Shown: piece by piece, positions 47,404 to 50,344 of the stretch
Numbering within the stretch: the stretch's first letter is position 1
Layout of the letters: each line of letters starts with the position of its first letter
Source: Larkinella terrae
Lineage (GTDB): Bacteria > Bacteroidota > Bacteroidia > Cytophagales > Spirosomataceae
Assembly: GCF_009668025.1 (NCBI RefSeq)
Contig: NZ_WJXZ01000012.1
Span: forward strand, 372,001-436,000
Direction: 5' to 3'
DNA length: 64,000 bases
Made by a program: the position numbers and the translations under genes
Notes under the pieces: generated by a model
The model's database searches: none
What the model was told of the DNA's origin: nothing
What the model saw: only the letters and a program-made list of their open reading frames with translations

Positions 47404-47760
47404 ATGAACTTACTGAAAACCACGTCATTTGCGCTGCTTATTTTTTTGGGGACGGCTTTTGCGCCCCTGCACCACGGCTGGGGTGACTACGACCAGACCA
47501 AAGTACTGGATTACACCGGAACCATCGAAGAGTCGAAGTTTGAAAATCCGCATGTGCTGGCCAAAGTAAAAGACAAAAACAAGACCTGGCTGGTGTATCT
47601 CGCGCCCGTTAGCCGAATGCAGGAACGGGGCGTAACGCCGGATATGCTGAAAAAAGGCAGCTCACTGCGCATTGTGGGGTATCCGCACAAAACCGCCAAA
47701 AACGAAATGCGGGCGGAACGTCTATTCATCGGCGACAAAAAATACGAGATGCGGAAATGA
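47404..47760 (+). CDS. DUF6152-like secreted protein
   Basis: Exported protein of 118 residues: signal peptide (MNLLKTTSFALLIFLGTAFA), then HHGWGDYDQTKVLDYTGTIEESKFENPHVLAKVKDKNKTW, a pattern (HH, tryptophan, DYT, NPH) shared with the DUF6152 family, a small beta-barrel of unknown function. The stop overlaps the next gene by 4 nt (ATGA); that gene is a DUF6644-type membrane protein, a partner often seen beside DUF6152. The family assignment is by resemblance. Confidence 0.65.
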   Translation: MNLLKTTSFALLIFLGTAFAPLHHGWGDYDQTKVLDYTGTIEESKFENPHVLAKVKDKNKTWLVYLAPVSRMQERGVTPDMLKKGSSLRIVGYPHKTAKNEMRAERLFIGDKKYEMRK

Positions 47761-48245
47761 GGATGAGCGTTCCCGTCGAGTGGCTGCAGTGGATTGAAAA
47801 CACCGCTCTGGCCGTTGCCATCCGCCAGTCGACGTGGCTTTACCCCGGTCTCGAAATCGTCCACATCGTCGGCATTGTCCTTCTCGTCGGCGGAGCGTTT
47901 CTGTTTGATTTTCGCCTGCTGGGCTTTTCCCGAAAAATACCGGTTACGGAGTTGGCAACGCATGTTTTGCCCTGGTCAAGGCGCGGTTTGGCGCTCGTTG
48001 TTCCGTCCGGTTTACTGCTTTTTACGACCAATGCCGAGTCGCTCGGCAACGATCCGATGTTCGGCTTGAAGCTATTCCTGATTCTGGTCGCGGGAATTAA
48101 CGTGGCTATTTTTCACCGAATCACGTTCCGGTCACGAGCGGGCTGGCAGTCGGGTGCAACGCCAACTGCCGCCAAGGCCACGGCCATTTGCTCGCTGCTG
48201 CTCTGGCTGGCCACCATCGCCTGTGGGCGTTTGCTGGCGTATTAA
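47757..48245 (+). CDS. DUF6644-like integral membrane protein
   Basis: Protein of 162 residues with about four transmembrane helices (residues 35-57, 75-91, 97-117 and 142-160) and the family-type start VEWLQWIENTALAVAIRQSTWLYPGLEIVHIVGI. The conserved His in the first helix (IVHIVG) and RITF with Arg/His after helix 3 could bind haem, as in small cytochrome-b-like proteins; this is speculation. It starts inside the stop of the DUF6152-like gene, so the two proteins are probably made together and cooperate across the inner membrane. Confidence 0.7.
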   Translation: MRMSVPVEWLQWIENTALAVAIRQSTWLYPGLEIVHIVGIVLLVGGAFLFDFRLLGFSRKIPVTELATHVLPWSRRGLALVVPSGLLLFTTNAESLGNDPMFGLKLFLILVAGINVAIFHRITFRSRAGWQSGATPTAAKATAICSLLLWLATIACGRLLAY

Positions 48246-48259
48246 ATCGAAAACCGACT

Positions 48260-48297
48260 AAAAACGAAAAGCCAACGATCTAATCGCTGGCTTTTCG
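48260..48297 (-). terminator. intrinsic terminator of the SAM-riboswitch peptide transcript
   Basis: Stem CGAAAAGCCA (48265-48274) with TGGCTTTTCG (48288-48297), extended inside the loop by CGAT/ATCG. Read on the minus strand it is followed by TTTTT (48264-48260). It is 15 nt after the 22-codon ORF and also lies after the DUF6644 gene on the plus strand, so it may serve both. Confidence 0.78.
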
Positions 48298-48312
48298 CAC
48301 GTGGAAGGTGGA

Positions 48313-48381
48313 TTACCGGATCGGACAAAGATGCCAGTCCTGATCGGGGTCACAACGTTGCTTTGACGTCTGATTGCTCAT
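48313..48381 (-). CDS. 22-residue peptide downstream of a SAM-I riboswitch
   Basis: Small ORF starting ATG 48381, 9 nt after the 3' strand of aptamer helix P1, and ending TAA at 48313. The peptide has an N-terminal polar part (MSNQTSKQ), two Cys (residues 10 and 19) and the tail DWHLCPIR. No signal peptide, no known family. Evidence that it is a real gene: it is the only ORF between a promoter plus aptamer and an intrinsic terminator, it starts at the right distance from P1, and the frame has a proper stop. It could be a micropeptide, a leader peptide or a remnant of a lost gene. Confidence 0.55.
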   Translation of the reverse strand: MSNQTSKQRCDPDQDWHLCPIR

Positions 48382-48390
48382 GATGGTTGT

Positions 48391-48509
48391 TAATTTATAG
48401 TTCCTAATTGATTTAGGCAGGTTAGCACTTATTCCACCGAATCGTCGGACCGTCTGGAAAGTTGCTAAGGGTTCGTTGAGCCTGTCTCTCCCCCTTTCTG
48501 TATAAACCA
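48391..48509 (-). promoter_or_regulatory. SAM-I (S-box) riboswitch
   Basis: S-adenosylmethionine aptamer read on the minus strand. P1: 48509-48501 pairs with 48391-48399 (core TTTATA/TATAAA). P2 and its internal loop carry AGGGGGAGAGACAGG followed by CTCAACGAACCCTTAGCAAC, aligning base for base with the B. subtilis S-box consensus (GAGGGACUGGCCCGAUGAAG...AGCAAC). P3: TTCCA/TGGAA with an inner CCGA/TCGG hairpin. J3/4: AAGTGCTAA. P4: CCTAA-ATCAA-TTAGG. The pseudoknot pairs loop CAGG with CCTG after GTGCTAA, a compensatory change relative to CUGG/CCAG. No terminator stands between P1 and the ORF, so control is probably translational. Confidence 0.85.
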
Positions 48510-48558
48510 TCACACCGGCAACCGGGAATTACTTTTGCAAGTAATCAAGATGATGATG

Positions 48559-48590
48559 CAAATGTAAAAGGCGGTTTTCTGTTTTCCAAA
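48559..48590 (-). promoter_or_regulatory. promoter of the SAM-I riboswitch transcript
   Basis: TTTG (48590-48587), 20-nt spacer, TACATTTG (48566-48559), both exact matches to the Bacteroidota -33/-7 consensus at the preferred spacing; the best promoter found in the window. Transcription would begin near 48552, about 43 nt before aptamer helix P1. Confidence 0.7.
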
Positions 48591-48683
48591 CTAAATCTAT
48601 ATTATTTGTAGAATAATAACTCCAAAAACCCTCAAACTTCTAATAATCAACTTTTTATAAATGTTCTTTGCATTAACGCCACC

Positions 48684-48717
48684 ATCTCACCTTTCTTGTC
48701 TCATCTCTTACTTCTCT
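48684..48717. repeat. TTGTCTCATCTC-type repeat, copy 3
   Basis: CTTTCTTGTCTCATCTCTTA and flanks, the same word set as 40110-40135. It overlaps the final codons of the CehA/McbA gene (stop at 48701-48703). Confidence 0.5.
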
Positions 48718-50344
48718 CCCCAAACCGCTTCTTCAATCCCTCAATCACCTCCCGTGTTTCAGCAATCCGGGTTTTGAGGCCCTTTTTATAGTGCCACAAC
48801 TGCAACTCCGGGTTTGAGCTTTCTTTTTCCAGTTCCTGTTCAATTTCCCGCAAATAACTTTCGCTCAGCTTCAGGTAGCGATCGGCGGTTTCGGGATTGT
48901 GAAAACCGCCCCCGTCGACAGTTACGTAAATCGGCGTGGTGTGCGCGGCTTGCTGCGGACCGGCAAAGCACCGGGCTGCCAGCCAGATGCCCCGCGTCAA
49001 GGTATCCAGATCCAGCTTCAGCGTCAACTGCCTGGCCGACTGTCCCAGCTGATTTTTCTTGACGCTGGCCAGCACTTTTCCGTGACCAACCAGTTCGATG
49101 CGATCCAGCGGTACCTGTTTCGAGTGACCAAAAGCCGTTGCCGAAATCACGAGTTTCGTCTGCTTTTTCACGTCTAACCGATCGCCGGGTCGGGCGTTGT
49201 TCACGCGGAAGTCGAGCATGGGGCCGCTGGTCGCTACGGTATGCCCCGCTTTTAAGCCTTCCTTCCACGACTGATTGGTGAGCGGTTTTTCGGTAAACAC
49301 GTAAAACCGGGCGTTACCGATCCGCGCCGAATGTTCCGGCGAACCGTGCTCGTGATCCTGCCCACACCACGGAAAATCAGAACCCGCCGTGGCCGTGACC
49401 GGAAAGCCCAGATCCAGCAAATGGTAATAGTGATCGGTGCGCAACGGGTTGGCATCCACGCAATACTGCAAAATTTCCAGCACATCGACTTTACCCCGCA
49501 GCCCGTCGAGCGTCAGGCCCCGGTAACCGTGAAAGGTTTCGGCGTGGTGTGCGTAACCGGCGACGCCACCCAGTTCGTGGAGTTTATCAAAAACCGTATC
49601 GTAATGGTAATATTCCTTCGAAAACCGCACCTTGTCGGAAGCGCCGTAGCCCAGCGCATGACCGAGTTCGGGCGTTCGCGGATCTTCCTGTCCGGAAACG
49701 AGCAGGTAATTGTCCCGGCGGAAAACCCCTTTTTCGCCGTACGCATACTGCGGATAATAGGTTTCCCAGAAATCGCCCATACGCAGCAGCACGCCCACCC
49801 GAACATCTTCGGCCTGTAACCAGCTCATCAACAGCGGATCTTCGCGCGGGGAACGCCGGATGTGAATGTGCCCGTCAGTCGAATACCATCCCCGGGCGGC
49901 CATATCGATCCAGCGCGCCAGACGAAACGTTTTCTGCTGGGTCTGACCGGACCGAACGACCAGCGGGTGCTGTTGCTCAACGAACTCCGGTCCTTTCGAA
50001 AGCGACAACTGGTAATTACCCGGCGGCAAGGTCAACCGAAACCGTCCATCGACGTAAAACGAACTATCGGGCTGAAAATCAAACCCGTCGGCGTGGTCCC
50101 ACAATCCGTACATGACGCCAATGGCTTCCGTCGGTAGCCGTTTAACTACCCGGCCCTGCTTCGTCAGCCGCACCCGAACCGGGGTGAGTTTGAGACTGGT
50201 TGCCGTCGTTATTTGGATAACAATCTGGCCGGGTTTAACGGATTGGGCCTGTCCCGAAAAAACCGCCAGCAGACCCAGGCAAAAACCGGTGAGCGCTGAC
50301 AGCCAACGTCGGTGATTCCGACAAAAAACCGGTAGATTATTCAT
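48701..50344 (-). CDS. CehA/McbA family metallohydrolase
   Basis: Secreted hydrolase of 547 residues with the PHP-like metal site of the CehA/McbA family (named after carbaryl hydrolases, but mostly of unknown substrate). Signal peptide ends GQAQ; a beta-sandwich N-terminal domain (about 36-145) precedes the catalytic domain with TDGHIHIRRSPREDP (His-x-His), GGVAGYAHHAET, the ATAGSDFPWCGQDH motif and a C-terminal beta domain. A Lys/Glu-rich helix ends the protein. Substrate could be an ester or phosphoester; the isolated context gives no hint. Confidence 0.85.
   Translation of the reverse strand: MNNLPVFCRNHRRWLSALTGFCLGLLAVFSGQAQSVKPGQIVIQITTATSLKLTPVRVRLTKQGRVVKRLPTEAIGVMYGLWDHADGFDFQPDSSFYVDGRFRLTLPPGNYQLSLSKGPEFVEQQHPLVVRSGQTQQKTFRLARWIDMAARGWYSTDGHIHIRRSPREDPLLMSWLQAEDVRVGVLLRMGDFWETYYPQYAYGEKGVFRRDNYLLVSGQEDPRTPELGHALGYGASDKVRFSKEYYHYDTVFDKLHELGGVAGYAHHAETFHGYRGLTLDGLRGKVDVLEILQYCVDANPLRTDHYYHLLDLGFPVTATAGSDFPWCGQDHEHGSPEHSARIGNARFYVFTEKPLTNQSWKEGLKAGHTVATSGPMLDFRVNNARPGDRLDVKKQTKLVISATAFGHSKQVPLDRIELVGHGKVLASVKKNQLGQSARQLTLKLDLDTLTRGIWLAARCFAGPQQAAHTTPIYVTVDGGGFHNPETADRYLKLSESYLREIEQELEKESSNPELQLWHYKKGLKTRIAETREVIEGLKKRFGERSKR

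Follow-up and report, generated by a model that had tools for sequence, protein, structure and literature searches.

SAM-I aptamer RNAs reportedly can act on their own, as SreA and SreB of Listeria are said to do, and we know of no selected open reading frame (ORF) in either. Nor do we know of a mycobacterial poly-cysteine attenuator ORF that lies behind a riboswitch. Several systems share one or another part with the locus presented here. In Mycobacterium tuberculosis, riboswitches first control a small conserved ORF, as in Mbox-rv1805A (PMC12810186) and B12-metE/ppe2 (PMC11260477), joining a riboswitch to a translational platform; the upstream ORF leads an operon, and the ligand is another. 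Leaderless short poly-cysteine ORFs of mycobacteria are described as cysteine-responsive attenuators (Canestrari et al. 2020, via PMC13236596 and PMC9094748), and in Rhodobacterales an upstream ORF with tandem Cys codons precedes cysS (PMC8632094). The leader peptide peTrpL of Sinorhizobium meliloti is functional in trans (PMC7298713), a precedent for a trans-active leader peptide, although one that derives from a Trp attenuator and involves no riboswitch. Small ORFs under riboswitch control and leader ORFs with poly-Cys are each known; their combination, and a riboswitch-micropeptide unit without any further gene, are apparently unreported. Neither was among the matches listed in a literature search that covered few subscription journals, and the one match on SAM riboswitches, leader peptides and cysteine in Bacteroidota concerned, by its title, SAM-II in alpha-proteobacteria.

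The locus described here, from the soil bacterium Larkinella terrae, appears to be a complete small gene, in which a predicted SAM-sensing RNA switch is followed by a 22-amino-acid peptide as its only apparent product. It occupies 48264-48611 on the minus strand of the window, the whole 64,000-nucleotide stretch that was analysed, and all parts given below lie on that strand. A candidate operator palindrome, CTAYA-N5-TATAGA (48596..48611), lies just 5′ of a −33 box TTTG (48587..48590), which together with the −7 box TACATTTG (48559..48566) makes up TTTG-N20-TACATTTG (48559-48590), the pattern that we take to be the Bacteroidota-type promoter consensus; a sigma-70 site scan of 48100-48800 found none. 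A 5′ hairpin element, GATTACT...AGTAAT (48528..48546), precedes the SAM-I (S-box) riboswitch aptamer (48392..48508), which has P1-P4 and a pseudoknot, P1 being formed by 48508-48501 paired with 48399-48392. The aptamer scores 69.6 bits with the Rfam model RF00162 (gathering score 44.4, E 3.5e-14), is the sole Rfam match at gathering threshold within the window and is predicted to bind SAM. The ATG of a 22-codon ORF, MSNQTSKQRCDPDQDWHLCPIR (48313..48381 with its stop), follows 10 nt past P1, with A at −3 and −6 and Cys at residues 10 and 19. After 14 nt comes an intrinsic terminator (48264..48298) with a 16-pair stem of dG −23.5 and then T's; scanning 701 bases gave 2 terminator-like sites against 0.7 expected.

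The neighbouring DUF6644 gene (47757-48245, plus strand) is convergent to the peptide unit, so that nothing further belongs to its transcript; no gene lies downstream of the ORF on the minus strand and no regulated gene was found in the same transcript. The upstream neighbour (48701-50344, minus strand) encodes a CehA/McbA family metallohydrolase. A preliminary description of this DNA had named the Bacteroidota-type promoter, the S-box aptamer with P1-P4, the 22-codon ORF with two Cys and the lack of an attached methionine or SAM gene, and all of these are borne out; its ATG close behind P1 and its terminator behind the ORF are likewise present, though at 10 and 14 nt rather than the 9 and 15 nt it gave.

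Set beside the known systems, the unit has an aptamer that meets the SAM-I family model, yet what follows is no methionine or SAM gene but a 22-codon ORF with its terminator. It differs from the M. tuberculosis upstream ORFs in belonging to another phylum and in ending, gene-less, at an intrinsic terminator. The mycobacterial poly-Cys ORFs resemble leaders of related Cytophagales in being Cys-rich ahead of sulfur genes, whereas MSNQTSKQRCDPDQDWHLCPIR has two single Cys and lacks the run of Cys codons that marks a cysteine attenuator.

The stand-alone unit is real and conserved. In a DNA search covering 59 genomes it turned up in all nine Larkinella genomes, with near full-length matches of 80-89% identity in seven of the eight other than L. 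terrae and a partial match of 73% in the eighth (G016). Among 222 family genomes, and with no more than two mismatches allowed, CDPDQDWHL was matched in the nine Larkinella, in one genome of genus g26 (G048) and, as a false positive, in G172, whose two-mismatch match was rejected as a peptide unit, being by eye a terminator-like palindrome without an aptamer. The exact string CDPDQDWH was confined to the L. terrae genome among 296 genomes across the phylum, a draw that included no other Larkinella, and the pattern CDPDQDW across the genome collection gave 26 stretches, seven in Larkinella and 19 elsewhere, with an RF00162 match at 0 of these 19. The order promoter-aptamer-ORF-terminator, proposed beforehand as the thing to look for in relatives, is kept in all nine Larkinella and in G048, and the opposite outcome, an aptamer in front of a full met gene with the ORF frame lost, was looked for in relatives and not seen. 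The promoter pattern is recognised in nine of the ten units, as TTTG in eight and as TTGG in G048, but not in G016. Seven of the eight other Larkinella loci retain the convergent DUF6644 gene, which is absent at G016 and at G048, where a co-oriented M28-type peptidase gene lies downstream. The G016 unit (L018) is divergent from a methionine aminotransferase-type gene, a neighbour that none of the other units was seen to have.

All ten aptamers exceed the RF00162 cut-off, and standard pairs fill 99.7% of 340 pair cells (P1-P4 and pseudoknot, ten units). Two-sided changes occur in 2 of 34 pairs, one of them in the pseudoknot, a result matched by 7 of 500 shuffles. The pseudoknot had been called covarying; it pairs in all ten units, but since a two-sided change is confined to one pair of the four, AU to CG in one sequence, the word is weakly true.

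The decapeptide RCDPDQDWHL is identical in all ten units, and codons 9-18 contain at least 12 nucleotide changes, all of them synonymous as against ~20% expected at random (p 4e-9 if random, with the ten units being related, so that this is no formal tree-based test). pN/pS is 0.017 in codons 9-18 and 0.55 in codons 2-8. This is the synonymous bias that had been suggested as a check on related genomes, and judged by these substitutions the RCDPDQDWHL core is under protein-level purifying selection, mostly on non-Cys residues, which lends indirect support to translation of the ORF. Outside the core, two species have a WHLAPIR ending, G016 ends in ...WHLVPVVVCRPAR and G048 in ...WHLSPLSRCKVHRP; the second Cys is lost in two of the ten units and displaced in two. 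The peptide matched no family in NCBIfam or Pfam, and a PDB sequence search gave two matches only (E 0.1 and 0.15), both to designed proteins.

From the sequences alone, then, the anatomy of the unit, its conservation and the selection on its peptide can be read off, and the reading they support best, to which we give a probability of about 0.68, is a free-standing gene for a SAM-repressed micropeptide. Among the three readings offered at the outset it is favoured by the part order kept in all nine Larkinella and G048 together with the purifying selection on the peptide. Transcription would start at the Bacteroidota-type promoter, possibly with a transcription factor bound to the palindrome 5′ of it, and give an RNA with a predicted length of ~290 nt. 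With SAM plentiful the aptamer would close P1, whose 3′ strand (−18 to −13) falls in the ribosome landing zone, and translation would be blocked; with SAM low P1 would open and the 22-residue peptide with its RCDPDQDWHL core would be made. The terminator would then end transcription, so that nothing else would be expressed. Translational rather than transcriptional control is the likeliest mode, because the terminator, placed past the ORF, shares no sequence with the aptamer. Relative to the ATG, the P1 3′ arm spans −18 to −13, and the ATG lies at +10 from P1, in all ten units, and this constant spacing makes it most likely that SAM represses translation of a real micropeptide. The peptide may act in trans on sulfur or SAM metabolism. 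A metabolite riboswitch that served a single tiny peptide would be evidence that riboswitch-linked leader ORFs can develop into independent genes, and the RCDPDQDWHL peptide would be a low-SAM signal peptide open to testing.

All ten units carry A at −3, −6 and −13 and T at −12; initiation in Flavobacterium johnsoniae is reportedly favoured by little structure between −20 and +20 and by A at −3, −6, −12 and −13 (PMC6847099). In folding models of the ten units the unpaired share of −20..−8 is 0.67-0.96 in unconstrained folds and 0.10-0.49 when P1 is forced, a drop that is partly true by construction. The P1-forced and P1-open ensembles are 0.5-2.8 kcal/mol apart in nine of the ten units; the exception is G048, where closing P1 is unfavourable by 12 kcal/mol. 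Without P1 the unpaired share of the start region (−7..+15) is higher in six units, equal in one and lower in three, among them that of L. terrae (0.29 with P1 vs 0.19 free); as modelled, start-region folding counts against a simple on-off picture.

The upstream palindrome CTAYA-N5-TATAGA has a single match in the window and none in shuffles. The pattern has four matches at three places in the L. terrae genome, the same number as a reversed control pattern, and no sulfur gene could be recognised at the two places outside the unit. By eye, CTATA-N5-TATAG-like sites recur upstream of the peptide unit in related genomes and close to genes of the YceI, thioredoxin-like and cysteine desulfurase kinds (L312, L019, L133, L135), and the palindrome is a possible operator for a shared transcription factor.

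To place the unit among other SAM-I leaders we searched 121 genomes of the family with RF00162, obtaining 173 matches in 117 genomes, and analysed 166 of them (110 genomes; the seven left out were single hits). Simple motif rules, with one protein per kind verified by family search, divide the 166 into 61 metY, 49 metX and 20 metH leaders, 22 leaders of cysteine desulfurase, thioredoxin-like or YceI genes (the desulfurase group), 10 RCDPDQDWHL units and 4 others. The L. terrae genome has two other SAM-I aptamers, before metH (methionine synthase) and metY (O-acetylhomoserine sulfhydrylase), to which the peptide-unit aptamer has identities of 0.76 and 0.77. The nearest aptamers outside the peptide set (0.87-0.92 identity) mostly belong to the desulfurase group, with two unclassed. 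The 5′ element (AATTACT, GATTACT or AATGACT) is present in 10/10 peptide units and 10/22 desulfurase-group leaders, in 5/49 metX, 0/61 metY and 0/20 metH leaders and in 1/4 others. That the desulfurase-group aptamers are nearest and often share this element suggests that the peptide unit descends from a sulfur-gene leader; it would probably have arisen when the Cys-containing ORF of a SAM-I leader turned into the gene itself. In G048, two equal-score metH SAM-I aptamers lie near contig ends (C1:17642-17747 and C1:4919303-4919408) and may represent two copies of an overlap that was left uncollapsed in a circular genome.

Closed ORFs of 10-60 aa whose start lies at +8 to +12 are present in all 10 peptide units, 41/61 metY, 9/22 desulfurase-group, 8/49 metX, 0/20 metH and 2/4 other leaders. 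Cys per residue in these aptamer-adjacent ORFs is 0.087 for metY, 0.143 for the desulfurase group and 0.081 for the peptide units, against 0.039, 0.041 and 0.010 in control ORFs taken from further along each set's leaders; metX leader ORFs have no such excess (0.028 vs 0.028 control). Cys codons also outnumber those in dinucleotide shuffles (metY 94 vs 55.3, desulfurase group 22 vs 8.7, peptide units 18 vs 6.4). Behind a UUAUA-type P1, 65 of 140 family leaders have an ORF at +7 to +14 (58 with Cys, 22 with CC, 4 with CCC), compared with 123, 8 and 1 among 264 control ORFs; the Fisher p of 2e-11 for CC is optimistic, the genomes being related. Behind a UUAUC-type P1, 6 of 26 have an ORF, all six with Cys. 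The metY leader of L. terrae (L003, minus strand) has the mini-ORF MTNIRCCMPSAGN at +10 after the aptamer, and ..CMP.. mini-ORFs like it recur in metY leaders of g5, g9, g18, g26 and g29.

Across the order, RF00162 had matches in 62 of 79 genomes; outside the family we analysed 73 of 134 matches (39 genomes), preferring best hits and multi-match genomes. A short ORF (7-60 aa) at +7 to +14 follows 39 of 51 UUAUA-type P1 stems, 35 of these ORFs having Cys, 29 CC and 25 CCC, and 1 of 21 UUAUC-type stems, that one without Cys; the split by P1 type is thus cleaner here than within the family. Control ORFs (n=90) include 43 with Cys, 5 with CC and 1 with CCC (Fisher p 1e-15 for CCC, again optimistic with related genomes), and a first-ATG rule gave identical ORF counts. 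Endings such as ...SIRMCCCCCCC, ...NNFYCCCCCCC and ...NVACCCCCCC are examples of the poly-Cys ORFs that follow SAM-I in L243, L244, L246, L254, L255, L256, L262, L267, L269, L270, L276, L286, L287, L290, L292, L295 and others. The genes behind them include metY, PAPS/APS reductase (L270, L296), sulfite/nitrite reductase (L286) and cysteine desulfurase (L298), and also genes of Na+/H+-antiporter type (L267) and TonB-receptor type (L290); exceptions among metY leaders, with an ORF lacking a Cys run, are L245, L247, L259, L273 and L294. In four leaders of family f12 (L281, L283, L285, L304) with a TTTTTATA P1, GTG replaces ATG ~10 nt past P1, and these possibly have GTG-started leader ORFs, which fall outside the present counts.

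The pairing of aptamer and ORF noted in the preliminary description extends beyond this unit, Cys-containing short ORFs after SAM-I being common in the order and present in the metY leader of L. terrae itself. A wider proposal, which we hold tentatively and rate a little under an even chance, is that throughout the order SAM-I gates a Cys-containing leader ORF 7-14 nt past P1, giving two-input control of sulfur genes by SAM and cysteine, and that this ORF has evolved into an independent micropeptide gene in Larkinella, in the genus to which G048 belongs and perhaps also in g32, with the peptide carrying the low-SAM signal in trans. If true, SAM-I with cysteine-codon leader ORFs, as at metY, PAPS reductase, sulfite reductase and other genes, would be a riboswitch joined to a ribosome-based amino-acid sensor.

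Such a background of leaders invites other explanations of the Larkinella unit. It might be a remnant, a SAM-I and leader-ORF regulator now drifting after loss of a downstream sulfur gene, and the closest outside aptamers, which mostly head desulfurase-group genes in other genera, are what one would then expect to see. Drift, however, accords poorly with purifying selection on non-Cys residues, with an aptamer intact in 10/10 units, a promoter pattern in 9/10 and a terminator hairpin in 10/10, or with a G048 unit in different surroundings, and we consider a remnant improbable. The best desulfurase matches in Larkinella share 45-47% identity with the g20 copy, and in G064 the riboswitch-linked and unlinked desulfurases are 49% and 48% identical to it, so that identity fails to separate the two kinds. 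The scar of a deleted met gene, one of the readings first offered, does not describe the present state; a loss may be part of the history, but the nearest aptamers mostly head desulfurase, thioredoxin-like and YceI genes and not met genes.

Quite unlikely, too, is that the RNA itself is the product, a SAM-binding small RNA acting in trans like Listeria SreA with an incidental ORF: the self-contained transcript with aptamer and terminator would suit it, as would the reported precedent, but the ORF core is selected at the protein level, and, by eye, the only other conserved parts are the 5′ hairpin element and the initiation region. A peptide acting in cis, by stalling the ribosome near the stop so that the terminator 14 nt on is blocked and read through, would fit the terminator close to the ORF and the Cys-rich leader ORFs common after SAM-I in the order. 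Readthrough in L. terrae would nevertheless run into the convergent gene, a neighbour kept at seven of the eight other Larkinella loci but not in G016 or in G048, which has the co-oriented peptidase gene downstream, and we regard this mechanism as very unlikely.

Terminator hairpins stand past the stop in all ten peptide units (dG −18.7 to −25.5), seven of which also pass a stricter rule; the T-tracts are poor in the G043 and G091 units. A looser rule (hairpin dG <= −10, at least four T in the next nine, at most 70 nt past the stop), used in the same way for every set, is passed by 10/10 peptide units, by L075 and L020 and also by 24 of 100 other leaders, which rules out that terminators are confined to peptide units; they are characteristic of these units, not exclusive to them. 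The hairpins of the other leaders are mostly weak (dG −10.1 to −20.0, one at or below −18.7), and some of these gene-bearing leaders may be attenuators. A strict scan after CC-containing leader ORFs outside the family found terminators in 0/30.

A second conserved peptide, behind an aptamer of the same type, occurs in genus g32 and speaks for the micropeptide reading; in G064 the aptamer is followed by MYNNFCSTRPVLCRSNSKGKCCPNDKWRS, a terminator hairpin and YceI. The pattern KCCPNDKW, with two mismatches allowed, matched six of 222 genomes; in the four from g32 (G064, G134, G186 and G526; L310, L312, L313 and L314) an ORF directly after the SAM-I aptamer ends in KCCPxDKWRS, and at the other two no aptamer was found. 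Among G134, G186 and G526 a terminator-like hairpin lies past the stop in two, one of them weak, and is missing in the third, so that a free-standing KCCPxDKWRS unit is supported at best in part of g32. By eye, though this may be chance, the Larkinella and g32 peptides have the motif [KR]C[CD]PxxxW in common.
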